Origin: Sclerodactyla briareus
Lineage: Eukaryota; Echinodermata; Holothuroidea; Dendrochirotida; Sclerodactylidae
DNA: 64,000 bases
Reading direction: 5' to 3'
NCBI GenBank assembly: GCA_026419785.1
Contig: JAODTK010005509.1
Location: 372,001 to 436,000 of the forward strand
Position 1 is the stretch's first letter; the number at the start of each line of letters is the position of its first letter. This document shows, piece by piece, positions 1,345 to 57,752 of the stretch. The notes beneath the pieces are model-generated. The model was not told the origin of the DNA. It saw nothing but the letters and a program-made list of their open reading frames with translations, and did not search any database. Both the position numbers and the translations under genes were made by a program.

Positions 1345-1393
1345 ATGGCTTTTCCCGTTTACCAGTTTGCTCTTGTATTTGGCATGCTTTTGA
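1322..1393 (+). promoter_or_regulatory. upstream ORF overlapping the SLC35F6-like start
   Basis: An ATG 23 bases before the main start opens a 23-codon reading frame that overlaps the main ORF in another frame and stops at 1391-1393. If 1322 lies in the mRNA leader, this uORF could lower translation of the main ORF. The transcription start is unknown, and base loss in this assembly could alter the frame. Confidence 0.3.
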
Positions 1394-1435
1394 CAGGCAG
1401 CATCAATACTTGAGTAGAAAGCCCAACGATTGCAG
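1345..1435 (+). CDS. SLC35F6: SLC35F6-like exon 1 (start codon, TM1)
   Basis: ATG at 1345 in the context ggacATGg opens MAFPVYQFALVFGMLLTGSINT, matching the family N-terminus, whose hallmark is the TGSINTLS motif ending TM1. A stop (tga, 1411) follows because one base is missing near 1408-1410. With one base added, the frame continues as LSRKPNDC and ends in phase 2 at the donor gtaaaa (1436). That phase fits the one-base start of the next coding exon. An upstream ATG at 1322 lies in another frame. Confidence 0.85.
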
Positions 1436-7400: not shown

Positions 7401-10400
7401 GACATAATAGAATAATCAGGAACAAGTAATAAATTCCTATTTTCTTTGAACAACATTCAAATGAACTGGCCAAATCATTATTGTTACTTCCTGTCTTCTA
7501 CTTCACATACTTTTGAAGAGAGATCAGAGATACTCAAATCAGTTAAACCGGAAGCTAAATCTGAAGGTCTGCTTGCCGTGGAATGAGTTAGTCTCGAAAC
7601 TGGACCACAACTAGGACTGAATATAAACAGTAAGCTTTCATTCAACAAATACAGTGGCGGCGAAAGCTACAAATTAAAGGGGAAGCAGACCAAACTTGAT
7701 GAATGTGGTTCACCTTCTAGCGGAAGCGACACCATGGCGTTGGCGGGTTGGATGTGGACGCAAATTTGGTTTTACAAACCTCCCAGATGGCCGGAACAGC
7801 ACTTCCTGAGCGTTGTGAGCTATATTGTACCATAAACTGGAGGGTCACGTTTCCAAAACCGTAGTTATTAATAAATGTATTGTATGAAGAATAATAATGC
7901 ATAACAGAGGGTTTGAGATAGCAAAAATTCTTGCTGTGGCAGAGCTGGGAAAGGGATGTCACACTTTTGCACCTCCCGCCCCCCATCTAAGAAATCGACT
8001 TTCTTCCTCAGTTAGGTGAATTCCAGTGCCATGATCGAGAATGAGAATTATGATGCATCACCCAGGTAGCCCCTTTTCTGCCCCCAGTTGGCCATCCCAC
8101 TATGGTCACGTGGTGAGCCTATCAGACTCAGGAAGGATAGAGTTCACATTTATTTAGGCCAGTTATAATCGATTGTCTTATTCCATCATGTTTCGCAGAT
8201 GATAATGATAGTTTAATGGTCGAGATGGTGCTGCGATGTCGGCTAATTCAGTTTGCAAATTGGGTCCCTGACAAACTTTTGAAATTGGGACTATGAAACT
8301 GATTACCAATATTGGACAAACTCGTTGAACACCTATCCATTTGACTACATGCTTCAATGCTGTTTGAAACCCCCCCCCCCCCCCCGCTACAAGTTGGCTC
8401 TAAGCTACTGCGTACGAGCCTTCCATGATACTGTTATCTGTGACTCAACATTGTATTGGGGGGGAGGGGGTAAGGGCAGAGACGAGCGAGGATGGAGATG
8501 TGAGAGAAGAGAAGGACCTGAGTGAGGAGAGGAGAAAATGAGAAGTGAGATGGTAGGAGGGGTGGGGGAGAGTGGGAGATGCGGGATCCGAGTGTTTTAG
8601 GACTCGGGCAGTGAATATCACTTTAGAAGTATTCAAGGGATTGGAAGGGGTGAGCTGAGATATTGTTCATCATTGCTATTGTACTCATATGGGGCTGTTA
8701 CACTTTATGAAGATCAAATTTGACAGCTGCTAATGAGGCAGCTGTATCATGGCAGATCTATGCCGCTGTCACGAGATTATTGATGATGGATCTGACGATC
8801 TGGTCAATGGCGCAGCGAGTGCTGGCACTACTGCTACGCACGTGCGTTATGCATCACTGAAAAATATTTGTCACAATGTTGAACTCCATGCGGTCAGTCT
8901 GTCCTTTTCCATGCCACCAGACACACAAGCATGTTTCCCCATCATATTCTCTTGACCCGTGGCTGCTAGGCTAACGTAAATTGCATTTGTGTTACTCCAA
9001 ATAGCCTCCCACCCCCCCATGAAATGAGTTTGCAGGTCTCACGACTTAGAAGGAATACAGTAGAGGCTGTCAGGAACTGGAGGTCAATTTCATAAGGGCA
9101 CAAGTTTGTCTGTCAGTTATTGTGTGTATATGACTGTCGTACCCATGCATTTTTTTACCAAAAGAGACGATACATTGACTTTTGTGTGACCAGTAGGGAG
9201 TAAGAGTGCCCTCCCATTCGGATTCCAAACTCAGATGCCTCTCCTCCTACTGTACCCTATAATAAATCTCCCACTATGTCCCTGGCTGGGATTAGGATAA
9301 TGATGATACTGATTTCCACTTTTAGCACCTTATAATGGGCAACCACATCTCAAGCGCTCACAATCATTACCCCTCCTCATTGGTAACTTTTCACACCCAC
9401 AATATAGTGCAAAACCGTTGCTGTCGCACCTGGCACACTGAACAGTTATGCCACATCCATCTTCCCCTGGGGATTCCATAGGTGCAGCCACATACAGCGC
9501 AACACTCCCCCCCCCATATAAGTTACCTCACAGGGTACCCATTAACACATGGGTGGAGTGAGGCAATCGAGATAAAGCACCTTGCTCATAGGGTACAGCG
9601 TGGATCGAACCACATCCCAACAACCACTGGGTTACGAGCTTGACGCCTAACCAATTAGGCCACCATGCACCAGGATCCCACCCATATATTTACTACTATG
9701 GGTATATCTCTCAAAATTCAATTCGCGTTTCTTTTGACTATTCTTCACCCAGTGTCAAAGGTATCCCTAAGGGTGGCCTTGGTAGTAACACCACTGCTGA
9801 AGAGCATAAATTTGACCACCCATGGTTCCAGACAGTCATCATGTTCATGGGTGAGTGACTAACTACATTGCCAAAAGTGATTTTGTCTCTTGGAGAATTT
9901 GCCGAACCTCCTGGTCTCCAAATTGCCTGCATGCTGCTGCCGTAGGGTGGTGCACCATAAAGAGGGGACCCCGTCCACGACTCCAACGAAAGATATAGCC
10001 AAATAGGCCAACGGTCATGTAACAGATTTCTTTCAAACCAGCACAGGTGGAAATGGGACATGTCAAAACCTCACACCCAAAATTTGGAGGTTTTAGCATG
10101 TGCCCTCGTTGGAGTTGGTTCAATTTTCTTCAGAAGGGGAATGATTCAAAGGCCACCCATAGATTTTCACACAGGGAATAGTGATATTTCATGACAGAAT
10201 TACAGAAATACAAGAATAGACCTGTATCACTTAGAAATGAATGAGATATTCCTTTTTTTTCGGTTCCCATGTATAGTTTGTTTTCACAAGTTCATGTTTT
10301 AACACTGGCTTTGTATTACAGGGGATTTGTGGTTCCCCCGTGTTGTCACAATGCAATTTTTTTCAACAGCTGATTACCCTTATCAGCTCACTCGGGTCAC

Positions 10401-16400: not shown

Positions 16401-19400
16401 ACTGTGCATTCTATTGTGCCGAGAACGATCCAGATTGTGATGCGTTTTCTGGAGCAGTGGCCAGTGTCTTCATGCAAGTCGAACTGCTTTCATGATGGAT
16501 GTGGTGGGTTCTGAGCTGTTGCAACTCCCTGTCTGTCAGGCAAGAACAAACCTACACTATGGTAAGTCCCATTTGCATGGACTTTTTTATCTGGTCAACA
16601 CTTTACAAGGTCAAGGACGAAGATGATTAAAGGGACATAATGAACCATTAATGGAAAACTGCTAAATGCTCCCCTTACAGATTAGGTTGGATTTCCACCA
16701 TAGTTCTTAGTCAGTGTTATCATGGGCTAGTGGTACCTACAGTATGTTCAGAGTTTTTGAGGTTCTCATGAATCACTATTGGAGCACCGCCTAGTATCCA
16801 GGTTGTGGTTGGTCTGTGTGTGATTACGACGACATAGCAAGCCTCATAATGCCTCAGACCTAAACCATTTCAAATTTGAATGTTGAAAGAAGAAAAATTG
16901 GAAGAAATATGTTGATAGGATGATATTTTGCAATTTAAAAACAAAGACATCACTATATATCTCGGTGCTGATGAAAAATTTCACTTTTGGTAGGTGTGAA
17001 TCATTCCTGAAGTAAAGTTCACATTATCAGAATTTGCTTTACTTTGGATATGGATCCATGACAGCCTTTAAGGTCAAAGGACCTTGCCGGACATCAGAAG
17101 CTGTTGTGTAAAACTCGAGGACGAAATTGGCCAAATTATAACTCCTACATAGGTGGTGGTGTTATCATTGACTAAGGTCACTAAAAGTCACTAAAGGCTC
17201 ACTTGGAGCCAATATGTGTAAAATTGTAAATCTTTTTTTTTCTCCATAAAAGAATCGCAAAACATCGATGTGTCCTACACAGCATAATATTATGATATTT
17301 ATAAGAGCCATAAGAGTTCAATGGTCCAAAGGTGAAATAAAGTAATCCAAACAAAGTATAGAATGCTTGATCTATGTCACTACTTCACCTCCCTATAATC
17401 AGCCTTCTTGTCTCTGTGGGTCTTCTCCTGAACACTGTGGGGTCTTTCACAAGCAGCGATTGGATAAAAGTGGCAGTTTGCCCTGTTGGAAGCATCCATT
17501 CCCGCAATGATCACGGCTATGATGGGGAATTACTACAGGGATGTTATTTATTATCTTATTTGCTGAGCAACCTATATGGGTAGGAATGATAAATCTGGCT
17601 AAAAAATATGCAAAGAATGTGGATTTTTTAAATTCTTATTTCTCCCTTATCCAAAATTTTCAGAACTGACAGTACATAACCCCTCCCCACTTTATTCTGC
17701 AATGGCTGTTGAACTGTTATGTCCCTATGCCAAGTTCTCCCACAGTTGTGTGCTATTGTTTATACTTCCATTGTTGTTCTACTCCCATGTGTTTACAATC
17801 CCATGTGTTTATTCTCCCCTTGTTAGGGTTTATTCAATAAGCCTTTTCATGGTTACAGTTAGTTCTGAGATGATTAACGACGTTTTGTCAAAGGTCATAG
17901 GTATACACTGGCGGGTTGACAATACACGTACGGGTGTAGAAATTTTCAGAAAAACTCCCCGATGGAAAACGAACACATTCTACCAACACGAAAATGAACA
18001 CAGATTCCTCCTCATACTTATCAACAATACCATCTAGAAAGATGGAGAATTTGGTTGTGTTCTAAAGGTGAGGACAGTCTAAAAAAGGATGCAGTGAATA
18101 GTTATGGGGGAGAATCTTGTCTAATTCCCCCAGCTGTTTGTGCTGAGACAGCACACTAAACAACTTGAAGGTCATTGTCTGCTCATTGTTCTAGGTACTC
18201 AAAATCATTTGACTAAAAGGAATGATTTACATCACCTATATTTTCAGAACTACTTGCAAAACCGAATATATCCAGCCCCATATTCCTCTCGCCCCTACTG
18301 TTTTCTTGACTAGTCACAGGCCCACTACAGGATTCCCCCCCACCCTGGACTCCTCCCTCCCCCCTTCCCACTTACCTCAACAAACGTCACCCTCAGAAGA
18401 CAATAATTTTTCTGAGTTCGTCTCATAGGAAAAAATATGGATTCAACATTCGATGCCACCTCCTGAAATCCATTGCAGAATATTATTAATTTGGGATGAT
18501 TTCCTTATTTGGATATTAAACCTGTCGTGTATAAAACGAGTATTGCTCCATTAATCCTGGCCCTAAGGGTAAAATAAAAATTCTAATTTGTTCCCATGGT
18601 CCTGATTTCAGGTGGTCTAAGAGTGTTGTCTATAATTTAAGGGATGTTACCCTTATAAGCATTACTATAGCATTGCTATGTGTGATGGAAGCAGTGCATT
18701 GAACTAATGTTATCAAGGGCACACCACAGGCTGGAGTTCAGGCGTCCAAATGGGGAATACCCAAAAAACTTTTGTTTTTGGGGGGGGGGGGCTGGGGGGA
18801 TTATGAGGCAATTTGCACCAAATATGAATTTGACTACACTCAGTATTAATTCTGTTATTTGGCAAATGCTTATCAATCATCAGAGATTTTTAATGACAGA
18901 ATTTTATTCTTCAAATCAAAGTCACTCTTAGCCACTGTGTCGTGCCCATCCAATAACAAATTCTCCAAACGGGAATGTACAACAAAAACTGGTAACTAAT
19001 AATGTAAATACAAGTTAGAGCAACTGCTTCATAGTATTCATAACACCCCTCACTTTCTGCCAATGAATGATATTAATTCTTCTGCTTCTTCCAACACAGT
19101 CAAAGGTATATATTTCTATGGTGGCCCCAGGATTTAATCTGAGGGAGAGGCTAGCGGGCAGGCGCATCACCCGACCCAATGCCAGCCTCTAATCTCCAGA
19201 TTTGAAACGATCCACATGTTCAACAAATTTGTCTATGGGTGCTGTATAAAATTGGTGAATAAATTGCTGAAACTATGGAGCCTCGATTGAGCCAAGTGAA
19301 GTGTTCTATTAAAAAAAAAAAACTCATCTCCCCTCCCCCCCACTTGTGTAATTGTCGTTTATTCGCGTTTCCTTCCAGGCATGGGTTGCTCTATGTCACA

Positions 19401-22400
19401 GCGTCAGTTGGCAAATGCTCAGAGGGTCACTGATCATTTTCACAGGAATCTTCTCAGTGAGTTTCAGACATGTTTCTCACTTGTCAAGTACAAATTTTTT
19501 AACATGACCCTTTCATAGACATATGACTGCCTAGTAACCAGTGGAGCACATCATGTAAACAGGAGAGGGGGGGGGGGGGGGTGAGTGGGCCTTTGAACCA
19601 GAATTACTGTGTGAAATGTTAAAGTCGTGGGAGCATCTCCAAAAAGTGTGGGGGAGGGGGGGTTGTATTTCCTTCCCAATCTCCTGGGGATGTGTGGCTA
19701 TATGCTGGTAACAAACTGCAAAAGTGCAAATTGTGGTCACCAATGATGAGGGCACCCACGGAACATTAGGGGGAACCTCTGAATGGTGCTCTGTTCACCA
19801 ATTGTGTGCCCCAATGAAGGTTGCACCGTCTGGTCACGGGCATTAATAATACACAATTTCCAAGAGGGGAGAGAACTTTTGGGACAACAAGATGTTCTGT
19901 CTGAGACTAGCTTTTTTGATCGACTATTTTGTAATTTTCCCATGTTTTTTTTTTGGCAACGTGGTGACGTTCATGACGAGGGGGGGGGGGGTAGGTGGCC
20001 AATCTTTCCGTAGGGGGCTTCCGTACAGGGGCCCCCTTTGTTACCAGCTTCATGGATTCCTTCGTTTAAACGAACATCCTTCTTTGGGGGTCTATTCAAG
20101 GTTCCTTAAAAAATCTGCTTTGTCCGCTCAAGACCTACTTTTTGCCGCTATGGCCGACTTTTCAATAGCTCAGGGGGGTGTCACCCCCCCACACCCCTCC
20201 CCCCCCCATATTTACGCCCTGTGTATGATATGTTGACCCGGCAGCATCTTATAGACCCGTAGAGGTGAGTATATAGGAGAGACCTGTACCATCACTTGTC
20301 TATAGTTGTGACTCCTGATGAGGATATCAAAGGACTATTCTAATAGGGCCTGCAGCCATTGTGTGTATGCATGGTGATCCACAAGAGCAGGAGACATCCC
20401 AGTGGCTGCCTGCTAGGAAAAGGATGCATAAAACCTCGGAAGATATTCAGGTAATATCTCCTGAGGACACTTCGCATGACTCATACCTGTTGATGTGTCT
20501 ACTGCGCATACCAAAAAAAGCATGCAACACTGTGATTCAGTTCTACTCCCCGCAGTGAGTTTAAAAAAAGCTATGTTGGGATTCTCCTGGTCACTCACTG
20601 AAATTGCAATATATGGATTTGGGTGGTTGTTTGTGAGAGATTGGGAGGCAGAATAACACCGTTGCTTCACTTTGTCTTCATCCCATTCGGATTTTGAGAG
20701 GTTACAAGTTAACCCTTCCTTTCCAAATTTTCTCAAGCGTCAGCTGAAATGGTATCACTGGACTGGTATAATGGTACTTGTACGTCTATTCTAGTATATC
20801 CTATAAAAAAATAATAAGAAAACTAGGGTATGAAGTAACACTGCTCAGATCAGATCTGATCATGAACTGTTGAGTGATATTTTTTTAGTGATTCTTGTAG
20901 GATTTAAGAGATTCCTCATGAAATTTTTGTTGAGGTTTCCACAACAATCAAAGGATGGGGCAATTTAGACTTCTTTTTTGTCTTGCCTGAACGAAGTGCA
21001 AGAAGGACTTAGCGATCACTTTGTCTGTGTGTGTTTGTGTTGTGTGTGTGTGTATGTGTGGTGTGTGTGTCTCTCTACCTCTTAGCAGAATTTCTTCCAA
21101 ACGGTAATTCCGATGTGATGAAGTTTCGTTGTAGTATCGGGTTTGGGTGAACATAATCTGTTTTAGATTTGGGCACCAAAGTCATATTGAGTAAGGTAAT
21201 TAAGCCTATTTTATGTTCATTATTGTTTATGCTCGATAGCGAGATTCGGGATGAACCGTTGGTGCTATGGTGACTTGTTTAGCATCCATATGCAGGATAT
21301 ATGGTAAGGTGAACTGATTAGATTTTTTCAAGCTCACATATGCTAATAAAGATAATCAAAAGTTTGTGGTTTTCACGAAACTTGGTGACATCTGGTCTAC
21401 CCTCCGTCCCCAAACTTTTTAAAGAGTCGGTCCATGGAGTTAATTCATGTATCTAATTTTGGATATTATCAAAATCCTGAAGTTTCTCGGATTTCCAAAA
21501 ACCTGTTGGTATGGTTTACCGTAGTTCCAGAATTTTTTATCATGGATTCAGGGTCACTGGATGTTCATTCACAACATGTCCCAATTGTATAATTTAATGC
21601 AATTCTGAAGTTTGCCAGATTTTTATGAAACTTGGTAGATATGGCTTCGTTACTCTCCAACATTTTTAACAGACTGGAGGTATTCGGTGTGTCTTTGCTG
21701 TTCATTCCAATTCCCAATTTGTTCGATTTTCCTCATTACAGATTGGTCTTGTTCTTGTGGGTAGTGCCAGTATATTTGAAGAGCCGTCTCCGAGTGGGGT
21801 CAAAGAAACCATTCTTGGTAAGAGGTCATTCTTCTTCATTGAACAGCAGCTATGATTGCCGTCCGGCTGATAATGGCTGGAATTTGTCTATCCATCTATC
21901 TATCTATCTATCCATCTATCTATCTATCTGTCTGTCCTGTCTGTCGACCGACTGACCGAGTGTGGTCACAATTGCTTCACTGATAAGCTCAAGTTGGTAT
22001 GTGCATTCCCGTATGACATTTATCGGGCATTGCTCAGAATCAGGACCAGTCAAGGAACACCAAGACGTCTGCTTTTCCGGTTGTTACAACTAGCCCAAAT
22101 ATGAGATACCCAAAAAAAATTCAACTATTGATTTCAGTGTACTTTTCGCTTGTGAACGAGCCAAGTCAAACCTGCCGGTCCTGTCATGTTCATACTGTGT
22201 AGGTATGTACTCCATAAATGATTGCACAAATTCTTTCAAATGTTAGGGTCAGTAGGGTCAATTCTAAAAGAATGGAAGAACTTCATTCCTTTGATCAAGT
22301 TTAAACATGGAGGGTAGTTTCCCGGTGGATGATGTGTATGTGAACTATTGATTCCAGTGTCAGTGGGGGTCTTTTTGGGTGGAAAGTACAAACATGTTAA

Positions 22401-25400: not shown

Positions 25401-28400
25401 TAAAGTTCCATTTAGCCTTTAATCCATGTCCTCCTTTCCAGCCTCCAAACCTACCCATACTGTAGTAATCTTTTGTATTGACTGATATAAAAACTACAAT
25501 TGAAGAAAAAAATCTGTTGAAACAATAATATTAGGTCAAATTGTAATTTCGTGGAATAGGTCCCTGTGATGAACAAACCCTATATGATCTACACCGGCCC
25601 AGCGTTTTATTTATTCGCAGACTGATCCCATGTTCTCAAAAATGAAATGAGTTTGAGGCTGTTATTTGACTGAAGTTCTTCTTGTAGAAAGTTAACGTCA
25701 CCATGCATTCATTTTCAATATCATTGATAGTCTTTTTCTCCAGATCTCAAAGGCTGACGAATGGAACTTAAGTGTGGCTGTGTCTTGATTTATTTATGTC
25801 TTTTGCAGGCCTGATATTCATCCTCGCTGGACAGGCACAAATGCCTTTCAGATGGTGGTTGAAGAAACATTCCTCAAGAAAAGAACGTCCCTCCTTTACA
25901 GGTATTGTGTTTGATGAAATTTCTGTTCAGCTGGATATAAGGATTGCCTTCTCAAAGTTATGGGTCAAAATTAAATAATTTTTCAAGCTATTATAACAAA
26001 AATGGGCAATAAACAATTTATATATTTAAACCTGCCATTAACATTTTTCATTTGCAGTGCCACTCTACCCCCCCCCCCCCCCCTCTACACACAGCAATTA
26101 ATTTTGTTTGAGTCCAAACTGCTGAAAAAACTCTGTTCCCTTTCTAGAGCCAACCCTGCTACGTGACAAATTGTATAGCTAGTTCGAAGTTGTACGTGCT
26201 GTATTTCATGGATATAGTTCTTGCAGGTTATTGTCTCCTCACTAAGAATGAGGCAATGATTCATTCAATAGAAACCCAGACAATTGAAAAGCTTGAATTG
26301 TCAGTTTATTTAGATGCTACTGCATGTCTGCTCTAGCTCCAGTATCTATAGAGTTGGCTGGCAGGCCTCAATGGCCCTTTTGTTTATTGGAATGCTATTT
26401 AGAGGCCATTATCCCCGCAACAAAGACTTTGGGAGGCTATTCACTGACTGAGTCTCTTGTTACTCAGTATCCGATAACATCTATGGTCAATCAGCAAGTA
26501 TTTCATTTTATGCAGTTATTTCTGCATCCTTTTAAAACTGATCTATCTATCCAGTGTGTCAACAACTGGGGTTTTTTGGCCCCCATATCAAACAGTCATT
26601 CTGTGATGGATGTCCGACCTAACTTCGACACAAGTCCTTGACCCATGACATGTCTGACCTTGTTGAGGTCAAGTCAAAGGTATTAAAGGGGCATATAGGT
26701 CTTTTTGTAAAATTTTCAGAGTATGTATCTCCTCCTACAAAATGTGGTGCACAGCGCTGATTTTCGGTCCATAATGATGTCTATCAGCCGTTACCTTTGG
26801 ATGTTCCGGAATTGTTCGGTTCATCAGGTCCCACTTGGGCCTGATGGGCTCTTTCATGAATTTCCACACAATGGTAACTTGAAATGCATCTCCTCCCACA
26901 GCTTCAATTGAATTTTTCAAGTTCCATGTAATGTTTCTTGGGTAGAGGGCCATTGGGGGTGTTCACAATTTGGGCGTGGGGCGCAGTTTGAGCCATAGGG
27001 CCCATATGTGAAATCTATTCAAAATGCTGTATCTCCTGCAGAATGCAGTTGCCAGTGCTGATTTTGGTCACAATGTGGTCACTAGCCATACCTTTGAGTG
27101 TTCAGGTTTTTTTGGTCCAAGGTCCGACTTGGGCCCGAGGGCCCATTTTATGATATTTCACACAATGGTGCTTGAAATGCACAACAAAAAAATTCCTCCC
27201 ACAAGCGCTGCATTGATTTGTTTTCAAAGTTACATGTATGGGCCTTGGGTATAATCCATTGGAATTGGTTTCAAGGACTTTTGACTCAACGGCCCAGTTC
27301 GGGCCCTCAGGGCATTATATGAAATACCGCAACCTCTTGTATAGCCTACAATTTAGTTGCAGTCAACCATGCTGATGTTTGGGTCACTAATGAGTTGGTC
27401 TAATAGCCTACCTTCAGGATCCTCAGGAACTTAGGACCAAGGCCCAGTGGGTGGGCCCGAGGCCCATATGTGGAATTATGCCAAATGCCTCCTCCTCTTA
27501 CAGGTTCGGCAGGCAGTGCTGACTTCGGTCATAATGTGGTCTAACAGTCCGGGGTGTTCAGGATTTTTGATCCAAGTGCCACTTGAGCCGATGGCCCATT
27601 TTATTAAAATTCATGGATTTTCACTCATTGGATACTCAAAATGCATTTCTTCCCACAATTCCATTGATTTTCTTTAAAGTTACATGTAATACTACTTGGT
27701 CCATCAGGGGCGTTTGCAAAACCTCCTGGCTCCAGGCTCATGTGGGCCCAAGCCCCTAGTGCCTGTCCTGTTTATGCCCAAAAATGTTTACAAATTTTGA
27801 TGCACGAGTCGGTGTTGATGTTCGGTCATTATGACGGTCCAATAGTGCCTTACCTTCAAGGTTCTCATGAATTTTGGACTTGGGCCCCATTGTGCCCGAG
27901 GCCCATCATGTCCATCACGCAAAATGCTTCGCCTCCTGCATATTCTGGTGCACAGTGCTGACATTCGTTCTACCTGATGTCTAACATTCGGGGTGTTTCA
28001 GGAATTTTTGATCCAAGTGCCACTTGGAGCCCGATGGCCCATTTTATTAAATTCCATGGAATTCACTCATTGGTACTCAAATGCATTTCGTCCCACAAGT
28101 TCCAATTGATTTTCTTTAAAGTTTACATGTCTACTACTTGGTCCATCAGGGGCGTTTGCAAACCTCTGGCTCAAGGCTCAGTGTGGGCCCAAGCCCCTAG
28201 GTGCCTCATGTTAATGCAAAACATGCTTCTACAAATTTGGATGAACAAGTCGGTGTTGATGTTCGTTCATAATTTCGGTCTAATAGCCTTACCTCAGGGT
28301 TCCAGGAATTTTGGACTTGGGACCCAGTGTGTGCCCGAGGCCATCATGTGCAATCACGCAAATGCCGCTCCTGCTATATTCTGGTGCACCTGCTGAGTTC

Positions 28401-31400: not shown

Positions 31401-34400
31401 CAGTCTCGAGACCGGTCCCGCTACCGATTCAGTCGAAGGACTCGGTCTCGGACCTCGGGATTCAATGACTCGGACTTGGTCTCTGGACTTGGCTGATGGG
31501 ACCAGTCCGAGTCCAGGTTCAAGACCACTCAAACAATCTCTTGCAAAATCCTTAAAATTAGAGGACGGGGATAATGCAACTTCTACAACCTTGATATTCA
31601 AAACACAATAACATACTGTGCCATTTTTGCGCATACGAAATTTGGAATTACCAATATGACTAAACTGGCCTGTAACAGCTATCCGTAAATGTGTCACATG
31701 CACACACAGAGAACATGCATCACTTGCCGCACGGTCTGCAAAAGAATGGTGGAAATTGTGATGTCCTGAAATGTCAATGAAAAAATACTTTATGCCTAAC
31801 TGCTTGTCTGGAAAATTATTAATGGTCTCCAAATAGTATGCTCTGTAGACGGTGGAGAGTCTCGTAGGGTTATATGGATTTTTTAGTTCTTTAATTCTGT
31901 TACTTTTGGCATTGTTATTGCAATTAACATGGCCATGGCTATGAACCTTCTTGATGAGCAAAGCCACTCTTGTATTGGCAGTTTGGAGTAGGAAAAGAAC
32001 TAAGGGGAAACTCATATGAATTTTGGGCATTGGGCTGTTGTGCATTAATTACATATACAGTCTCCGAGGATGCAGCATCTAACTGCACATACTTGCTATT
32101 GAATCCACTACAGTCCTATTAATTTTGCTACATGCAAGTGTTAACTGGGACTCGGACTTGGGACTCGGACAAAAGGGACTCGGACTGACTCGGACTCGGC
32201 TGCTGAGACCTCGGTCTTGGACTCAGGACTCAGATTAGCTGGACTCGACTCCACCTGATCTTAATGAAAGTGAGCAACATCCATGTATTTTACATGTTTG
32301 TTACATATTTCAGCGTATTGGAAGGAGGGCACTTGGTTCTTCATCATGTGTCTGTTAAGTATTATTCTGGAACAGAGACTGCAAAAATCCTATCCTCAAT
32401 TAAGTGAAACCCTCTGCTCACCTGTAACAGTACTCTAAACTTTACCAATGCAACCTAACATTGTATAAGGCGCCGTTTATACCAACTTTCGTCAAGCTCT
32501 CATGAATGTGACGGTTTGAAACGACCCTAGGGGAACAAACCATTGTAGGGTATGCATATTGACAATAGACGTACGTGCTACAGTTCATACGTACTGTAAA
32601 TCATGCACCGAATGAGCCTTGCACAAGGCATTGTCCATAACAAAAATTTGTTCCTGCCCCCAAACTCCATGAAATTCTCTATACATAATCATTGCTGATG
32701 GAATCTGAGAGGAGCCCAATAAGTTTAGTCTATAATGAATAAGCGAATTCCATGTGAGAAAGAATGCTGTGAATGTGCCACTCAACAAAAATGTTTATTA
32801 GTTGTGTTTTTTTAACACACAAGGTAATTGGGGGACCCCAGTATGTTCCAACTGTGTTTAGAGAATTCAGCACTGTACAAATAATCCCATCCCGCACCTG
32901 TGATGGCGCCCTGATTCCATTGGTCAGTAATCAGCTGATTGTGTGTTTCAAGTTTTTTCATAAAGTCACTGCAATAAATGGGTCATTTTCATGACAAAAT
33001 TCATCCAAAATTGGCAGAGGAATGTTCCTATAAGTGTTATTTTTTCTCTCTGATTACAGATAGTACTACCAGTTCTTTATTTTATTCCCGATGGAATGCC
33101 TACACTTGGAGGTATGAGGACCAATCGACGCCCCTACCAGATATACCACAGCCCCAAACTACTGACATTCTGCCTCCTCTATCTGTTCTCCATTACATTT
33201 TACAACTACTGCGGATTGGCCGTCACAAAATCACTGACTGGTGAGTTTAGTCTTGAACTGTTAATATATATGATCATACATGCCCCAAGAATCGAAACCA
33301 AACAAAGGCAAAAACACGACTGGTAAAAAGTTGATTGTGTGATGTATTTATAGATCATACTTAGGCTTGATTCCCAGATACACCTGGAACCTCCAGTGTT
33401 TCCTACGAACGAAATACTCGAGGGGCAGTCTAGAGCCTACGACTCACGAACCTAGGACAGTTGTTCCATGCCAGGGAGATTATATTCCACACCTGGATGA
33501 GAACTTCAGTACATTGTCCAGTTCTTGGGACTGATCGCGTCAGTTGGACGGGCTCCGGTCCAGCCTGACAGAGGATACAGAGAACATTTTTAAGGTGACA
33601 GGAGGGTTTTACTTCCGCCAGTGGTAGCCATGAAAGTGGTCCACAGTTTACACAACCACTACTGAACTACCCAGGATTGAAACACTCCAGTGCAGCAGCA
33701 GGCCCCCTGGTCTCCAGAGGACGGGGGGGGGGGGGGGGCATAGGGGGGGGGGGGGGAGGCATGGATGCAGTATACAGTGGAGGACAAGGAGTGATTGAGA
33801 GGCATGCTAATCAACCAGGAAAACTTCAGGGAAGTAAAGGTGGTCCGGTAGGTCCTCGATTTCAAACTACCCGATCTACCTGCCCGTGTTTTCTCGAGTT
33901 CCCTGACACAGCCCAGGCTGACACCGGCATCCCAGTCAGTAGGTACTGTGCACATGCACAACGTAACACCCCCCATATGCACAGGCTGACGGACACGCAA
34001 ATATACTACCACGGTTGACAGTCACACTGATCCCAGCATTGCACATCTCTCAAGTTGTGTGTCCAACGATATAAAAGTGCTAGATGTTAGTAAATATGCT
34101 GGAACTAGACTTTGATAATACCAAGTTGAATTTCTTCTCTCCCGAGCATAGTCTGGTTGAGCCTGCAGATATGGTAATTTAGGGGTTCATTTCGACTGCC
34201 AACTAAGTATGGAGAATTCTGTCTGTAGGAGCTGTTTGCCTCTCCATCTGTTATCGTGGATGCAATATATATCACAGTTACTTGTAGGACATCTTTAGCA
34301 AGTACTGAACACAACCCACATTTCAAGTTTCCAAACCAAGATCATACCACCTCTATTCTCCGGGATCTTCACTGGCTTCCATTAGGTCGCCAATTCATTA

Positions 34401-37400: not shown

Positions 37401-40400
37401 CACATCAGCCTGTCATAACTCTTCTGGGCCCCCTGACCTGACCATATAAAGTGTAAACACTCGTCCTTTGTTTACTTGACTCCCAGGCACTTTCAAGAAT
37501 GAATGGTGTCAGGTGGTCAACCTCGTAGCTCTGGTGTTGAGTGGGGGAGCGTCTTCCTAAAGGGTAACTCCCTTGTATCACTTATAAGGTGTCATAGCTT
37601 CCAGCCAGTAGGGCCTGCATGACTCCCTTCCAGGTCGCTAATAGATGGCTTATATTCCACTCTAGACAGGGTATGTGAGAGGGGGGGGTGAACTCCCTAG
37701 GGATTGATGGAAGTAGTAGATGTAAAAAGGGCATACTCTTTGCTGATATATAGATAAAACTTCAGTAGATTTAGGGTCCATTTACATTGTTTTTTTTTTG
37801 GACAATACAATTCTGAAGGGAACTAATTAAACCACAGATCAGTAAGTATTGGTTTTATAAATGGAGGGTACAGTAGGATAGGATCAAGGGGTGTTAGTCA
37901 ATGATGGCACATGAATGTTTAATATTTAAGAGGTATTGGGGATATTAAAGCAACATTTGGGAATGCCTTGTAATTGTTTGCATGGTGACTAAACGAAGAA
38001 ATCACTGATCAGCCGCAACCAGGCTAGACACTGGGGGCGTCGCCTTTTTGTAGGTGCCTTTCTGCTCCAAATCATTTTGTTAGTACAATGTGTCCTTAGT
38101 CCACCTTTCAACCCGGGAGACCGGGGTTCTATTCCCGGTCTGGTCATACCAGAGGCTTCAAAAATGGAAATCTGTTGCCTTCTCACTGGGCACTCACCCA
38201 CGAGGATTGGAGCAGAGACAACGAGGGTTGGCAATTGCAGTTGCCGTTTGTTGTGATCACCCCAAACCCACCCCCACCCCAAAGGTTAGGTGCGCCAAAA
38301 TAGGCATTGCTTTTTCTTTTCTGTGTACCTGGTGAAGGATTTCGAGGCTGACAATGGTTGCAGGTAACCAGGTTCTGCACCCTTGTTAGACCTTGAATAT
38401 GGGGTCACGGTCCTCTAACACAGGGGCGTGAAAAAAAAAAAAAAAAAAAAAATGTGACGCAAGTATACCGTAAAAAAAAATGAAGACATTGCTCGAGTAA
38501 ACACACATGCTAAATGTGCTGCATTTGCCCATTGTGATCTGTCAGAAAATGAATACCTAGACTAGTGAAGTTTTCAACTCGTGTCATCTCTTTTCTTCTC
38601 CACAGCGGTCCACATGACCTGATAGACGCCTGTCGTACCATTGTCGTCTGTGGTGGACCTCACGATATACTACGCCTTTGGACAGACCTTGGAGACCCTT
38701 TCAATACAACCTATGGCCTCCTGCAAGTAAGTGCCGCGCAGAGGGTCTATAAATGTTAGTCAGTTATTGATGAGAGTCCTACAAGTCCTTCAGTAGGTTT
38801 TTTTTTCCAGTTTTTTCCATCAACAATTCGGGCGATAGCGACGCCTCGTTATTGCACACTCGGATTATTCCCTGGTTTGCGTGTGATCATTGTGTTCCTC
38901 ATAACCTCTGTTTCTGCCTGCAGAAGACTCCATGTCTCCTCTAAGTTTTTTGTTGTTTTCTCAACACCTTTCCATTGTGCACAGCTAATATTAGTGTGTT
39001 GATGAACTCTTTGTGAGTACACATAGTGTTCATAGTAGAACTAACTTGTTCTGTTTTGAACTACAAGTCGGTCCTTTCATGTCTACGTAAAAAACATCAG
39101 GCTTGTGAACTTGATCGTCCTCAGTGATACAATGGTCTCTGCCTTGGATGTCACGTATGATCGCTCTGGAGTTTCAAAATTTCAACTTGTAATGACTTGG
39201 TGGGTAATCCCCATGCTGTAATTTTGCTGCCTATTTGTTAAGAAAAAAAAATTGAAAGGGGGGGGAGGGGGTTGTGTGAGTTTAGTTGTTTATTTTATTT
39301 TAGTAGTTTTAGAGCACTCCAGGCTGCATTCCTGTTAGGTCTAAAAACAGCAGGTTCTTACGCTCGCTGTATTGATTTATGTAAAATTTTTAGTGTTCAC
39401 GACTCTTAAAAATACTGACTTGAAACGGCAACACTCACTGGAAAAAAGCTTCTCGGTCTGTCTGTCTGGCAGTCTTCTGTGATTGTTCATCATATCCTTC
39501 ACATCATTAATACACAGTTCTTTCAGGTTTCATTTGATGGCGATAGAAGTAAAGTGTCCTAAGTTACTCAACTGGAATATGTTTCCCAGGCAATTAGTTA
39601 TTGCCATATGGTTCCTGCTCAAACAAGGAACGGGTTATCCCGCCCAGAGAAGGGAACCTGTATGGTCTCAACGAAAGCATTTGGTGATCTCAGCTTTGTC
39701 TACTCTGTTTCTTTGTTATGACTCCCTCTTTCTGTTGAGTTGAGGTGTCTTGGCTCATTCCAGACGCACTGGAACGTTATTGATTTCTACATCTGTAAAG
39801 CGAATTGAACAACTTGTCGTTGGATTTTACGCTATCATCAGACCATTATTATAGTAGTAGTAGTATTACCATGACTATTATGACTTCTATTACGCTTGGT
39901 AATAATTGATTGTGTGGTGATCTGAAGTATCCTAATCTCCGCAACATTGCTGTTGGTTGACATTGAGGATGATTATCCAGCAAACTCCACGGTAATTCGT
40001 ATTACCACATTTACATTTTTTTCTTTTCCTCTGCAACACTAAGGTGCTGTCGCGTGTGCAATGGTTTGTTACTCCTCATCACCTGCTGTATAATGTCCAA
40101 ACATTCACATCTACAATACAGAACCAATAACTATACAGATTCATATAATTCTGTTCACACTTGTGTTTGGTTCCCTACATAGGTCAGTAACTTGCATCAC
40201 AGAGAAAAGACATGTCACAATTTGACACAGTAAAAATTGCTGCTGTGGTCAAAGGAATAGAGATTCCTTCAGTTGGATACAAGTTTTAGATAACCACCTT
40301 ACTGATGTGTATAATGCAATAGTCGAAAGTGCAAAACAGCTTCAGTTGGGTATGTGGAGGGGGAAAACTCACATTAATTCAACTCATAATTTTCAGTCAT

Positions 40401-41300
40401 GGACTTTCTCATTCATCGAATTCTAAACAATAAGGAATTCAAAGAAATCTCAAATGGCATCTTTGTAATAATTTAACCTAAAATCGAGCATATTTGACCG
40501 TAATAAGTATGCTAATAATGAAAACAATTATTTGCTTGAAAATGATTGCTTTCATACTTGGATGAGGGTATTTTTTTTTACCAATTGTCATCAATTACAG
40601 TTGTGATGTAACTATGTTGAAGAGCTTATTGGCTCCTTCTTAAGTTTTTATTTGATGCCAAATTTGTTATTTGATACCAAATCACCGCACTTTTAGTTAG
40701 TGGAATATGTTCAATTCCCCACTTTAGCAGGCTTGCATGAAATTGATTCGATTCAATTTTATGGGTTCAGGAAGCCTATTATGGCTCTTCTATGAACCCT
40801 AACAGTGTTGATCATGGATGAGCATTTGGCTTAACTCACCTCCTCTTCTAGAATATGATCCAGGATGAAAGCGAGGAGGGGTGAACCAATCCCAACTGCT
40901 CCCGGGGACCGCATATTCTGTCCTCATTTGAAAGGACTATCAGTGATCTCCAGGACCTAATAATTTCCTCAGAACCTGGAGGATCAGAAGTTAACGTTAA
41001 CTCTAAGTAATGGAGAAGGCGGAATGATCCAGTGTCCCACCAGTGAAAAAGGAGTGGGTCCATTAGTTGAAGAGAACTGGAGGCAAACAATCAAATCTAA
41101 CCGTAAACATGCGAGATGGTTCTTTTGTTTTTTTCTCTACAGTTGATGGGTTCATGTTTCTCCTGATAGGCACAGGCCTTTACAACAACCTGTTTGATCT
41201 GTCTTTCCTACCGTGCCTGAGAGAGCCCCTCGAGGAGCCCATCTCTCAGGGTAGAGGGGAGGAGCACGACCAGAGTGATGATGAGAAGAGGCACTCTTAG
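1345..41300 (+). CDS. SLC35F6: SLC35F6-like transporter gene (split over about 12 exons)
   Basis: This is a multi-exon gene for a multi-pass membrane protein of the drug/metabolite transporter superfamily. Human SLC35F6 is described as a lysosomal/mitochondria-associated membrane protein that binds the ADP/ATP carrier ANT2; its substrate is not firmly known. Seen here, in family order: a start with TGSINT in TM1, EHKFDHPWFQTVIMFMG leading into TM2, DLIGTTLAG, GLLYVTASVWQMLRGSL then IIFTGIFS, QLKWYHWTGIMVL, IGLVLVG, QMVVEETF, GTWFFIMCL, VLYFIPDG, GLAVTKSLT, LIDACRTIVV and FLLIGTGLYNN, followed by an acidic cytosolic tail. Intron phases agree between most neighbouring exons. Several exons need 1-4 extra bases to read through, mostly in homopolymers, so the assembled sequence does not conceptually translate. 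The loop between TM2 and TM3 is only tentatively located. A decayed gene is possible, but intact splice sites argue for assembly error. The E11 region (WVVDLTIYY-like) is closer to what I recall of nematode and fungal members than of mammals. Confidence 0.88.
1508..1517. repeat. left target-site duplication of foldback element
   Basis: The sequence ccttgtgagg directly precedes the element and recurs at 5039-5048. The outer two bases are ambiguous because the element ends in C/G runs, so the true length is 8-10 bp. Confidence 0.7.
1530..1972 (+). repeat. forward subrepeat array of the foldback element
   Basis: About 18-20 degenerate copies of a 22-26 bp unit (aaggtccgttattcataat plus a variable spacer). 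Spacers such as cgcgaaa recur near the end of the array. Confidence 0.85.
2098..2335 (-). repeat. reverse subrepeat array 1 of the foldback element
   Basis: About ten copies of the same unit in inverse orientation (cctattatgaataacggacc). With the forward array and the 125-base spacer 1973-2097 it can form a large hairpin. Confidence 0.85.
2336..2866. other. interior of foldback element, no gene
   Basis: T-rich non-coding sequence between the inner array and the SINE. No ORF or motif that I recognise. Confidence 0.4.
2867..3376 (-). repeat. tRNA-derived SINE (family A), minus strand
   Basis: Read on the minus strand it starts with a tRNA-like head (A-box-like tagtacagcggtatcagtg, B box ggttcgatttcc near 3310-3321). 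About 400 bases of body follow and it ends in a (aatca)n tail at 2867-2890. A second, headless copy lies at 40738-41040. It is nested in the foldback element. Confidence 0.75.
3690..4640 (+). pseudogene. CR1/Jockey-type LINE reverse-transcriptase relic
   Basis: Broken reading frames give in order VPQGSVLG (near 3730), a decayed DDTKLYREV (3823-3849), WQMFFSVDKCKLCM (3917-3958), EKVLGFVWILF-like and KPSKHCAEAARNGN (4058-4100), LFNATVRPHLEDKICTVWNP (4168-4227), ENVQRRATRMIHCLK (4262-4305), RLRLPRSN-like, and RGHCPKLRVKRCRMDIR (4470-4520). These are the RT palm-to-C-terminus motifs of CR1-like LINEs. Many stops and frameshifts show that it is long dead. Confidence 0.8.
4752..5020 (-). repeat. 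reverse subrepeat array 2 of the foldback element
   Basis: About eleven copies of the unit in the same orientation as array 1, ending with ccttatgaacaaa variants that mirror the left terminus. Confidence 0.85.
5039..5048. repeat. right target-site duplication of foldback element
   Basis: ccttgtgagg, identical to 1508-1517. Confidence 0.7.
5049..6464. other. intron 1 sequence, no gene seen
   Basis: AT-rich non-coding DNA with short A, G and C runs. No ORF with protein character and no repeat family that I could pair within the window. Confidence 0.4.
6465..6489 (+). repeat. poly-G run of 25
   Basis: Twenty-five consecutive G. Other long G or C runs lie at 8370-8385, 19567-19581, 33723-33738 and 33743-33756. 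Confidence 0.95.
6976..7190. repeat. degenerate 'caagtc' repeat block
   Basis: Dense caagtccaagtc/aagtctcaagtc motifs, like the subterminal part of non-autonomous hAT-like elements that carry 'aagtc' arrays. No partner inverted end was found nearby. Confidence 0.5.
7191..9273. other. intron 1 sequence, no gene seen
   Basis: Non-coding. It contains a C16 run (8370-8385) and a purine-rich ggga/gaga stretch (8458-8590). ORFs here are short with no recognisable domain. Confidence 0.4.
9274..9675 (-). repeat. tRNA-derived SINE (family B), minus strand
   Basis: On the minus strand: head tggcctaattggttaggcg (A box), B box ggttcgatccac, then a body with ttgcctcactccacccatg, ggtaatgattgtgagcgctt and a short tail of tatcatcattatc. 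It lies about 80 bases before the acceptor of exon 2. Confidence 0.72.
9753..9850 (+). CDS. SLC35F6: SLC35F6-like exon 2 (TM1-TM2 loop and start of TM2)
   Basis: A pyrimidine tract with acceptor ...cttcacccag precedes 9753 and donor gtgagt follows 9850. The exon reads VKGIPKGGLGSNTTAEE then HKFDHPWFQTVIMFMG with no frame error. Human SLC35F6 has EHSFQHPFLQAVGMFLGE at this place. It enters in phase 2 and leaves in phase 1. NTT is a possible N-glycosylation sequon in the first loop. Confidence 0.88.
9851..11490. other. intron 2, no gene seen
   Basis: AT-rich non-coding DNA. A frame opened after an AG at 10321 (GDLWFPRVV) was tested as exon 3 and does not resemble the family. Confidence 0.4.
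11491..11900. repeat. degenerate dispersed repeat
   Basis: Contains 'ttacatgaaacttagtgggtg'-type text, which recurs in varied form near 21365, 21615 and 29565. It leads into the 145-bp monomer block. Confidence 0.35.
11900..13830 (+). repeat. 145-bp monomer satellite-like block, copy 1
   Basis: About eight degenerate monomers spaced about 116-161 bases apart. Each has a ttcaggaattttgg box, GGGCCC-like palindromes, a gtgaaat..aaaatgc box and a cagtgctgatgttcggtca box. The 3' part carries tgtgatggatg and ccaatgttcattg text shared with the other blocks. Confidence 0.8.
13836..13878 (+). CDS. possible SLC35F6-like exon 3 (TM2)
   Basis: After tctcttacaag the sequence reads, in the phase required by exon 2, G-E-R-F-C and, with one base added, R-I-G-S-F-L-L-P, then a weak donor gtaggc. 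The family has GE-x-x-C near the start of TM2 (human GEFSCLAAFYLL), so position and pattern fit. Acceptor and donor are mediocre and the exon is short, so this is only a candidate. Confidence 0.25.
13879..15307. other. intron sequence, no certain gene
   Basis: Two related 40-base pieces with atgcgggt-ggccacccatcgccct lie near 13651 and 14176. A 137-codon minus-strand frame covers 14944-15357 but runs over exon 4 and shows no known domain. Confidence 0.4.
15308..15365 (+). CDS. SLC35F6: SLC35F6-like exon 4 (entry to TM3)
   Basis: The exon lies between acceptor ...ggtttccgtttgcag and donor gttagt. The 3' half reads DLIGTTLAG, equivalent to CDMTGTSL in the human protein, and ends in phase 1. 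The 5' half is open in one frame as DFSDVFMANNG. A second frame reads IFQMSSWPTM, which resembles the expected P-x-x-x-D sequence better, so a one- or two-base loss near 15341 is likely. Confidence 0.6.
15366..19378. other. intron 4, mostly unexplained
   Basis: Non-coding apart from two weak exon-like blocks (16395-16562 and 17374-17583, discussed separately). No SINE or LINE was identified. Confidence 0.4.
17374..17583 (+). CDS. possible small secreted ORF (69 codons)
   Basis: The frame starts MSLLHLPIISLLVSVGLLL and continues NTVGSFTSSDWIKVAVC, which looks like a signal peptide with cleavage near TVGS. It has two later cysteines and ends at TAG. The start context is poor, and a candidate donor (gtagga) overlaps the stop. 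It lies inside intron 4 on the same strand. Function unknown; chance cannot be excluded. Confidence 0.18.
   Translation: MSLLHLPIISLLVSVGLLLNTVGSFTSSDWIKVAVCPVGSIHSRNDHGYDGELLQGCYLLSYLLSNLYG
19379..19456 (+). CDS. SLC35F6: SLC35F6-like exon 5 (TM3-TM4, QMLRG signature)
   Basis: Acceptor ccttccag and donor gtgagt (19457) flank the exon. The second half reads WQMLRGSLIIFTGIFS, the most diagnostic stretch of the family (human FQMLRGAVIIFTGLFS). The first half reads MGLLYVTASV only if one G (near 19386) and one T (near 19409) are restored. Phase 1 entry matches exon 4 and phase 0 exit fits exon 6. Read without correction it opens with a misleading MGCSMSQRQ. Confidence 0.88.
19457..20728. other. 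intron 5, no gene
   Basis: G15 run at 19567-19581, G12 near 19980, and a cccccccc-rich patch at 20175-20210 ending catatttacgccctg, a text typical of DNA-transposon ends. Confidence 0.4.
20729..20779 (+). CDS. SLC35F6: SLC35F6-like exon 6 (FLKR loop and TM5 start)
   Basis: The frame reads FLKRQLKWYHWTGIMVL and stops at donor gtacgt (20780). The family has FL-x-R-x-L followed by W-x-G at this site (human FLGRRLVLSQWLG). The 5' boundary is not clear: no AG lies just before 20729, although the upstream sequence is pyrimidine-rich (20713-20724), so a base may be lost at the acceptor. Phase 0 exit agrees with exon 7. Confidence 0.72.
20965..21215 (+). repeat. dispersed repeat with (TG)n core
   Basis: ttgtcttgcctgaacgaagt, a (tg)n stretch, then aatttcttccaaacggtaat and gcaccaaagtcatattgagt. 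Related copies lie at 34916-35180 and 47048-47285, and a different (tg)n family at 6885-6960 and 42708-42770. Confidence 0.6.
21340..21680 (+). repeat. degenerate ~125-bp tandem repeat
   Basis: Three related pieces (tttcacgaaacttggtgac near 21371, tttccaaaaacctgttgg near 21490, tttttatgaaacttggtag near 21619), spaced about 120-130 bases. It ends just before exon 7. Confidence 0.5.
21742..21817 (+). CDS. SLC35F6: SLC35F6-like exon 7 (TM5)
   Basis: The exon follows tttcctcattacag and precedes donor gtaaga. It reads IGLVLVGSASIFEEPSPSG then VKETILG without any frame error. Human SLC35F6 has GLVVVGLADLL and a comparable hydrophilic loop. Phase 0 entry, phase 1 exit. Confidence 0.88.
21890..21952 (+). 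repeat. (TATC)n/(TGTC)n microsatellite
   Basis: Tetranucleotide run of tatc with some catc, changing into tgtc. Confidence 0.9.
21953..25808. other. intron 7, mostly no gene
   Basis: Non-coding apart from the direct repeats at 23002-23500. No ORF with protein character. Confidence 0.4.
23002..23500 (+). repeat. direct repeat, two copies plus a third fragment
   Basis: cctattttgtaa(g/t)ccc-att at 23002, 23307 and 23452. The first two share ttacacagac..tataaca and ctgtcatgcaggcaccc, ending caaattaactgac. Confidence 0.8.
25809..25901 (+). CDS. SLC35F6: SLC35F6-like exon 8 (TM6, QMVVEE)
   Basis: The acceptor is ttatgtcttttgcag and the donor gtattg (25902). It begins LIFILAGQA and, after one missing base near 25836, continues TNAFQMVVEETFLKK then RTSLLY. 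Human has GDLLIIMAQIIVAIQMVLEEKF here. With the base restored the length is exactly two bases, thirty codons, two bases, fitting phase 1 in and phase 2 out. Confidence 0.87.
25902..26540. other. intron 8, no gene
   Basis: Contains a long C run (about 26069-26083) and nothing else that I recognise. Confidence 0.4.
26540..29180 (+). repeat. 145-bp monomer satellite-like block, copy 2
   Basis: Same monomers as at 11.9-13.8 kb. A piece of about 440 bases near 27570-28000 is repeated at about 28010-28440, i.e. three monomers duplicated as a unit. The 3' end is gagctacagcaccattggtg followed by ctctagtt, a palindromic terminus shared with 48270-48301 and, inverted, with 58769-58797. Confidence 0.8.
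29181..30090 (+). repeat. degenerate dispersed repeat, no gene
   Basis: Contains 'gtctgactttcacaaaactc' and 'gggtcactgaaggtcat' text related to 21.4-21.7 kb, plus poly-A/poly-T near 29274-29294. Confidence 0.4.
30100..30395 (-). pseudogene. probable LINE fragment, minus strand
   Basis: A minus-strand frame (86 codons) ends in text that, after a frameshift, reads SRMWNKLPPGSGSL. That is the shape of LINE reverse-transcriptase C-termini (W-N-x-LP). No palm motifs are present. Confidence 0.4.
30396..31373. other. intron 8, no gene
   Basis: Non-coding. A gattcgagtcc B-box-like piece at about 31103-31113 lacks an A box upstream. Confidence 0.4.
31374..32257. mobile_element. 'GACTCGG' foldback element, hAT-like MITE
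   Basis: The left end is cagtgttggcggacttgagt; the right end, reverse-complemented, is caggtggagtcgagtccagc. Both arms are dense in gactcgg/ccgagtc motifs in opposite orientation (31380-31530 and 32145-32240). CAGxGxTGG-like termini are usual for hAT elements. No clear 8-bp target duplication was found. The 273-codon minus-strand frame here is a by-product of the repeat. It ends about 55 bases before exon 9. Confidence 0.6.
32314..32353 (+). CDS. SLC35F6: SLC35F6-like exon 9 (mini-exon, TM7)
   Basis: A mini-exon of about 40 bases follows ttacatatttcag. Its second half reads GTWFFIMCL, matching EGLFGFVILSL of the human protein. The first half (c-gta-ttg-gaa-gga) is in another frame, so one or two bases, probably G, are missing near 32330. 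The donor reads ct-gttaagt: phase 0 exit, required by exon 10, needs one more G at the junction. Confidence 0.7.
32354..33059. other. intron 9, no gene
   Basis: Non-coding, about 700 bases, no repeats recognised. Confidence 0.4.
33060..33240 (+). CDS. SLC35F6: SLC35F6-like exon 10 (TM7-TM8)
   Basis: An intact 181-base exon between tctctgattacag and gtgagt. It reads IVLPVLYFIPDGMPTLGG, then a basic loop (RTNRRPYQIYHSP), then a TM with FSITFYNYCGLAVTKSLT. Human SLC35F6 has SIAFFNFAGISVTKELS at the end. No frame error; phase 0 in, phase 1 out. Confidence 0.92.
33241..34335. other. intron 10, no gene
   Basis: Two G runs (33723-33738, 33743-33756). ORFs on both strands here come from these runs. 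Confidence 0.4.
34336..34560 (+). pseudogene. LINE relic (LHWLP box)
   Basis: Reads DHTTSILRDLHWLPLGRQFI, the common LINE RT box H-x-T-P-x-L-x-x-LHWLP. Frameshifts follow at once. Confidence 0.6.
34916..35180 (+). repeat. dispersed repeat with (TCTG)n core
   Basis: ttgtctcgcctgggaacgcc, gagacatagtggtcactttg, then (tctg)n from 34978 to about 35035. Same family as 20965-21215. Confidence 0.6.
35490..37150 (+). repeat. ~600-bp tandem repeat, 2-3 degenerate copies
   Basis: ggccataatcggagaattgg at 35491 and ggccataattggagaattgg at about 36112 begin two copies. Each contains gcatgtgtgtgacctc, gaataaatgtgcttattt and gtgtgctttaactggagga-type text. A third, weaker copy starts near 36640. Confidence 0.75.
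37151..38080. other. intron 10, no gene
   Basis: Nothing recognised apart from short homopolymers. Confidence 0.4.
38090..38482 (+). repeat. tRNA-derived SINE (family C)
   Basis: B-box-like ggggttctattcccgg, a body with ctgtgtacctggtgaaggat and ggtaaccaggttctgca, an A22 run (38431-38452) and an end gcaagtataccgtaaaa. Homologous to 47838-48178. It ends about 125 bases before exon 11. Confidence 0.75.
38606..38726 (+). CDS. SLC35F6: SLC35F6-like exon 11 (TM9)
   Basis: Acceptor ttctccacag. The exon begins AVHMT and, after one missing C near 38620, reads LIDACRTIVV (human MVLDSLRTVVI). Two bases are missing near 38650, then VVDLTIYYAFGQTL is open in another frame, and one more is missing near 38691 before GDPFNTTYGLLQ. 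All can be explained by shortened C or G runs. The exon meets gtaagt one G short of the phase that exon 12 needs. Confidence 0.82.
38727..40737. other. intron 11, no gene
   Basis: Non-coding. Includes a G/A-rich patch near 39245-39275 and a short tgtctgtctgtctgg piece near 39455. Confidence 0.4.
40738..41040 (-). repeat. SINE family A, 3' part
   Basis: Shares gggttcaggaagcc, gatcatggatgagca and tgaaccaatcccaactgctc with the copy at 2867-3376. The head is missing. It ends about 100 bases before exon 12. Confidence 0.7.
41143..41300 (+). CDS. SLC35F6: SLC35F6-like last coding exon (TM10, C-tail, stop)
   Basis: Acceptor tttttttctctacag. The exon reads DGFMFLLIGTGLYNNLFD, equivalent to GFLILLIGTALYNG in the human protein, then a tail with LREPLEEP and an acidic EEHDQSDDEKRHS, ending at TAG (41298-41300). 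The acidic C-terminus is probably cytosolic. No frame error. An AATAAA lies about 1 kb downstream (42283-42288), but I cannot tell whether it is used. Confidence 0.92.
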
Positions 41301-50045: not shown

Positions 50046-50340
50046 TCAGATTAGCTCAGTCAGTAGCGCTTCAGACTGTTGATCAAAAGTTTGTGAGTTC
50101 CAATCCCACACACCGATCAGCTTTTCCCTGGTGTCTTGGCAATACACTCCGTCTCCAAGCCGCTCTCCAACCCAGGTGTTGATGGGGGGGACCTGTGAGT
50201 AACCTGTGATTACACCCGGTGCTGTATTAGCTGCTGCCCATATCTAACCGATGCGGACCATTTCCTATGAACAGGGTAATATCTGTAAAGCGCTTTGAGC
50301 ACTAAAGTGGGAAAGGCGCTATAAGTACCCCGAGATTATA
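50046..50340 (+). repeat. tRNA-derived SINE (family D)
   Basis: Head gattagctcagtcagtagcg, B-box-like gagttccaatccc, body ending gtaaagcgctttgagcacta and aaaggcgctataagtacccc. A second copy at 51356-51640 is part of the tandem duplication. Confidence 0.8.
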
Positions 50341-51345: not shown

Positions 51346-51353
51346 ACACAGAG

Positions 51354-52690: not shown

Positions 52691-52828
52691 AATAAATCTC
52701 AGGAAATAACCAATACAATGCTTAATTGATTTCCTATAATTTGAGAATACTGGGGAGAGAGTAGCCAACTTTGTGCTTGAACAGAGATTTTCTGGCTATT
52801 TTTTGGTAGGGGCTGCGCTCCAAAACCC

Positions 52829-53262
52829 TGTCAGGTATCTGCCACATTTCCTTAAGGTTTGCTCTAACCCTGGCATGTATCTACCACCTTTTTCAAGGGA
52901 TGCTCTCACCCTGTCAGGGATCTGCCACATTTCCTTAAGGTTTGCTCTAACCCTGGCATGTATCTACCACCTTTTTCAAGGGTTGCTCTCACCCTGTCAG
53001 GTATCTGCCACATTTCCTTAAGGTTTGCTCTAACCCTGGCATGTATCTACCACCTTTTTCAAGGGTTGCTCTCACCCTGTCAGGTATCTGCCACATTTCC
53101 TTAAGGTTTGCTCTAACCCCGGCATGTAAGGGTACCACCTTTTTCAAGGGATGCTCTCACCCTGTCAGGTATCTGCCACATTTCCTTAAGGTTTGCTCTA
53201 ACCCTGGCATGTATCTACCACCTTTTTCAAGGTTGCTCTCACCCTGTCAGGAATCTGCCACA
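52829..53262 (+). repeat. 83-bp minisatellite
   Basis: Five copies plus a part (starts at 52829, 52911, 52994, 53077, 53162, 53246). The unit runs ctgtcaggtatctgccacat ... aagggatgctctcacc. Copies are nearly identical, so recent. Confidence 0.95.
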
Positions 53263-57750: not shown

Positions 57751-57752
57751 AG

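Follow-up and report, generated by a model that had tools for sequence, protein, structure and literature searches.

The window, by which we mean the whole stretch of 64,000 bases analysed here, carries a chain of short exons on its forward strand, and the evidence supports reading it as a single SLC35F6-like gene, about 40 kb long, with many introns and an interrupted reading frame. The frame breaks are really present in the assembled sequence. We consider it probable that they are sequence errors, in which case the assembly would lack single bases at many exon sites and the organism's own frames would probably be intact. The gene would then be an ordinary, probably functional member of the drug/metabolite-transporter superfamily, with at least ten exons over about 40 kb and a predicted lysosomal membrane protein as its product.

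The window contains no N, and its G+C content lies between 39 and 47% in 4-kb steps. Its long introns and its microsatellites point to an animal as the most likely source. The query was a human SLC35F6 sequence in a version that may differ from the true human protein. With this query, an alignment tolerant of splicing and frameshifts, allowing GT-AG introns and frame breaks, traced the chain from 1345 to about 41335 with a score of 158 on the forward strand versus 49 on the reverse strand. Shuffled proteins (n = 24, 12 on each strand) scored 39 to 61 with a mean of 47.6, the reversed protein 41 and 47, and the reversed window 52. A translated search, as proposed by the sequence-only reading and performed with tblastn and the human protein only, gave eight blocks in the correct order on the forward strand among the 40 matches listed (four with E < 0.05 and four with E of 0.16 to 28); the other 32 were taken as chance. 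The description of the gene as hidden by its frame errors is fair for annotation based on open reading frames, and less so for translated searching, since plain tblastn already brings up eight of the ten.

Ten exons were placed by hand, and the list below follows this hand reading rather than automatic spliced alignments, which at three intron costs bridged gaps with small, doubtful exons and passed over exon 9. GT stands at all nine donors and AG at eight of the nine acceptors, the exception being 20726; this total of 17/18 depends on borders that were set by hand to agree with the homology, in some cases from several possible sites. Exon 3b is the next after a missing exon.

Exon 1, 1345..1435, forward strand: start codon, first membrane segment and TGSINT; donor GTAAAA; frame break at 1411; tblastn residues 1-22 at 1345, E 0.16.
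Exon 2, 9753..9850, forward strand: loop and EEHKFDHPWFQTVIMFMG; donor GTGAGT; unbroken; tblastn residues 39-58 at 9796, E 0.006.
Exon 3b, 19379..19456, forward strand: QMLRGSLIIFTGIFS; hand reading gives two breaks (19387 and 19407), whereas the automatic alignment calls a single one, and that at no more than the lower two penalties; tblastn residues 116-135 at 19406, E 1.2e-4.
Exon 4, 20726..20779, forward strand: FLKRQLKWYHWTGIMVL; chosen acceptor without AG; unbroken within by hand; tblastn residues 135-152 at 20729, E 21.
Exon 5, 21742..21817, forward strand: IGLVLVGSASIFEEPSPSGVKETIL; unbroken by hand; tblastn residues 143-179 at 21712, E 28, and spliced alignment.
Exon 6, 25809..25901, forward strand: LIFILAGQAQ / QMVVEETFLKK / NVPPLQ; two breaks, at 25844 (hand) or 25835 (automatic) and at 25882; tblastn residues 191-203 at 25843, E 12.
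Exon 7, 32314..32358, forward strand: RIG / EGTWFFIMCLL; one break, at 32323.
Exon 8, 33064..33240, forward strand: ILPVLYFIPDG ... YQIYHSPKLLTFCLLYLFSITFYNYCGLAVTKSLT; three breaks, at 33111, 33122 and 33133; tblastn residues 223-288 at 33054, E 0.010.
Exon 9, 38606..38726, forward strand: AVHM / LIDACRTIVV / VVDLTIYYAF / TTYGLLQ; three breaks, the inner two of uncertain sign; missed by tblastn among the 40 matches listed and by the automatic chains.
Exon 10, the last, 41143..41335, forward strand: LM / FMFLLIGTGLYNN, with an acidic C-terminal tail; one frame ends at the stop 41298-41300, and an alternative gene end, in the next frame after one more break, is the stop at 41333-41335; tblastn residues 322-356 at 41148, E 0.013.

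The junctions 1435/9753, 33240/38606 and 38726/41143, which the sequence-only reading had named, have GT/AG borders, and exons 20726-20779, 21742-21817 and 32314-32358 are additions to it. Between 9850 and 19379 no exon for some 49 residues was found by motif scans and frameshift-tolerant alignments; the probes were human and family-like, and nothing exceeded shuffled probes. Joining the exons, with X written for each break, gave one open stretch of 64 residues and one of 282. The claim that the gene is absent from every open frame above 61 codons does not stand as worded when frames are counted stop to stop, as 33054-33326 (90 codons) and 9592-9855 (88 codons) contain parts of it; with exons of 45–180 bases, short frames would be normal anyway. 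At 31224-32048 on the reverse strand, between exons 6 and 7, lies the window's longest open frame, 274 codons from stop to stop, which had no Pfam match at E 0.01.

We compared the two stretches with this human reference by blastp. In the first, 28 of 64 residues were identical (44%, 42.7 bits), and in the second 98 of 264 (37%, 147 bits), so that similarity to human SLC35F6 runs along the protein except for the approximately 49 residues between the two parts. TGSINT, QMLRG, IIFTG, QMVxEE, VTKxL and LLIGTxLYN, which we take to be family motifs of SLC35F6, are all present in order. The longer series first picked out by eye (TGSINT, QMLRGSL..IIFTGIFS, QMVVEE, LIDACRTIVV and FLLIGTGLYNN) was likewise found in that order on the forward strand, and the proposal of a single gene of about 40 kb with frame errors gains support from the alignment score, the exon borders and blastp. 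The order and spacing of the conserved blocks, from MAxxxYQ..TGSINT to LLIGTxLYN, match those of the human protein, and both have an acidic C-terminal tail. In contrast to human SLC35F6, the gene here has frame breaks, the stretch of about 49 residues not found, 11 additional residues ahead of the last membrane segment, and GXLYVTASXW where the human protein has ALNMTSASSF. Kyte-Doolittle analysis gave eight groups of hydrophobic windows in the two placed parts. SLC35F6, also called P40 (PMC11203873), ROAM1 (PMC13382097) and C2orf18, is described as having up to ten membrane segments (PMC11203873).

No Pfam DMT family exceeded its curated cut-off for the second part. The best likeness was a weak profile match to PUNUT (PF16913; E 0.0033; 17.2 bits, where the curated cut-off is 30.6), in which residues 1-94 of the second part lie on profile positions 93-188; PUNUT, the purine nucleobase transporter, belongs to the same superfamily. 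AGTRAP appeared in the same scan (E 0.027, below cut-off). Eight exon pieces scanned against Pfam gave no DMT family and one DUF (E 0.041, below cut-off). Against PDB sequences a piece of exon 8 had no match, and the second part had four, with E of 1.2-2.5. No relatives were found in the viral, prokaryote and phage collections (viral_contigs, genome_contigs and phages), which do not cover eukaryotes and in which a single-protein query reaches close relatives only.

To characterize the breaks, the hand reading was set beside automatic calls on the spliced exons. By hand there are 14 incomplete codons in about 1,000 coding bases, 13 of them lacking one base and one lacking two (or carrying one extra). 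Eleven of these 14 breaks stand opposite one human residue with no adjacent gap, which, with the placement made by hand, fits loss rather than gain; the other three lie before the alignment, in a gap, and after the end of the alignment, respectively. In automatic calling gains and losses cost alike, and a gained codon retains the score of its residue. With the middle penalty of 9, the calls were nine breaks of -1, a single +1 and a single +2 (-1 in 9/11); penalty 12 gave five -1 and one +2, penalty 7 ten -1, two +1 and one +2, and penalty 5 thirteen -1, two -2, three +1 and one +2. The automatic gains fall in inner exon 9 and the tail, two regions in which the alignment to human SLC35F6 is poor. 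In exon 9 the two inner breaks were called +2 and +1, as against losses by hand, and in the tail the break was called +1 at 41274 (penalties 5 and 7), as against a loss at 41283. Additional breaks in exon 5, exon 8 and the tail, called automatically at penalty 5 only, were not accepted, and a 15-base deletion in exon 3b was dropped, as another frame aligns without a gap. There are no substitution stops in frame in 332 codons.

A chance chain of unrelated exons or motifs would accord with the weakness of single pieces, four of the eight true tblastn matches having E of 0.16 to 28, but we regard it as highly improbable because the ordered score of 158 lies far above all 24 shuffles and all four further controls, and the joined exons align along human SLC35F6. 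Equally hard to credit is a genomic frame truly lacking single bases at nine or more places, with recoding or insertional RNA editing restoring the product. The predominance of one-base losses in a gene that is conserved in other respects would suit it; however, the gene is nuclear and intron-rich, other duplicates in the window also carry many one-base gaps, and we know of no recoding or insertional-editing system of such a kind for nuclear animal genes. The more serious competitor, though still unlikely in our judgement, is an unprocessed pseudogene, in which an SLC35F6-like copy, whether duplicated or abandoned, would have kept its introns, decayed by small deletions and lost an exon and a splice acceptor. 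The nine -1 breaks at the middle penalty would be expected of such a copy, and the residues not found between 9850 and 19379 together with the acceptor without AG at 20726 also fit a decaying gene. Against this, conserved residues are retained, the breaks are mostly one-base losses, and neutral decay should usually bring many substitutions along with indels. A working gene with missing bases is favoured over a pseudogene because there are no stops and 17 of the 18 chosen borders are GT/AG. Random substitutions would create a stop in 4.1% of cases, and the probability of zero stops is 0.56, 0.054, 0.016 and 0.003 for 14, 70, 100 and 140 substitutions. If some 100 substitutions accompanied 14 neutral indels, zero stops would have a probability of 0.016; with only 14 substitutions (0.56) the absence of stops would be uninformative. 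The applicable value depends on the organism's substitution-to-indel ratio, for which the literature consulted, including passages of PMC2823711, offered no usable standard figure. In C. elegans the ratio is given as 0.69 in one comparison and 7.3 in another (PMC3151237); the value of 0.69 indicates that a natural excess of indels exists, and so counts against sequence error.

We also looked to the rest of the window for traces of sequence error. Long-read errors are described as mostly short indels at homopolymers, after which genes resemble pseudogenes (PMC12007338). Six duplicate pairs, kept from 105 self-hits after dropping those below 150 columns, below 80% identity or redundant, comprise 3371 columns with 280 mismatches and 149 gaps, 106 of one base; the many one-base gaps between duplicates (53 in 1313 columns and 32 in 613) were counted for sequence error. 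On the other side, six tandem arrays (at least five copies and 200 bases, overlapping rows dropped) showed 35 one-base gains and 42 losses relative to their own consensus, and the lack of a clear loss bias was counted against sequence error and favours the pseudogene. The repeat at 52825-53182 is nearly clean (12 mismatches and 3 gaps in 360 columns), which was counted likewise, and a run of 25 G retained at 6465-6489 argues against the assembly having simply shortened every homopolymer. As a yardstick for the error rate, a second conserved gene was sought by Pfam in 140 frames (of the 150 longest sufficiently complex frames, with at least 71 codons, the last ten being omitted) and in all 122 frames that were selected beyond 41400 and outside arrays at a length of 48-70 codons, and none was convincing; four Pfam families in both sets (E 0.002-0.01, one member each) were taken as chance. 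On balance, bases missing from the assembly of an ordinary, probably functional gene remain the reading we think likely.

Several repeats were observed in their own right. A 26-base unit with TTATTCATAA at its core forms inverted arrays at 1516-1970, 2101-2333 and 4752-5037; the ends, 1516-1826 and 4752-5037, match each other in inverted orientation (70% identity over 320 columns) and frame about 3.5 kb in intron 1, an arrangement resembling a foldback-type element. A tandem duplication of about 1.25 kb (50065-51337 and 51352-52571, 81% identical) has 113 mismatches; of its 80 gaps, 53 are one base long (18 vs 35 per copy). The array at 57752-58581, with about 32 copies of a 26-base unit and 88% matches, shows six one-base losses and no one-base gain relative to its consensus. 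Two-copy tandem repeats lie at 27539-28396 (441 bases; one-base gaps to mismatches 29 to 24) and 61095-61717 (288 bases; 24 to 26). No tRNA or Rfam match was found in the window.

Mammalian SLC35F6 is reported to reside in lysosomes by virtue of an acidic dileucine signal in the tail, EQERLL in the human protein (PMC11203873). A second source reports that SLC35F6 binds and restrains AMPK, and that UDP-GlcNAc activates AMPK in an SLC35F6-dependent manner (PMC13382097). Here the tail in the first frame reads GEEHDQSDDEKRHS, with no counterpart of human EQERLL, and EEALL appears only with a frame change at about 41283 in the same exon. After one further break the tail would continue through EEALLAEEEEEVEPQY, which contains a [DE]xxxL[LI]-type signal; this reading is tentative, as the automatic alignment calls the tail break differently. 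By analogy with mammalian SLC35F6, the product is predicted to reside in lysosomes and may handle a nucleotide-sugar-like substrate.

The gene itself looks ordinary, resembling the known lysosomal membrane transporter SLC35F6. As this type of gene is already known, the main value of the finding is as a warning on assembly quality: an assembly lacking single bases can make a conserved gene unreadable to annotation based on open reading frames, and the SLC35F6-like gene would then seem lost or pseudogenic in this species.
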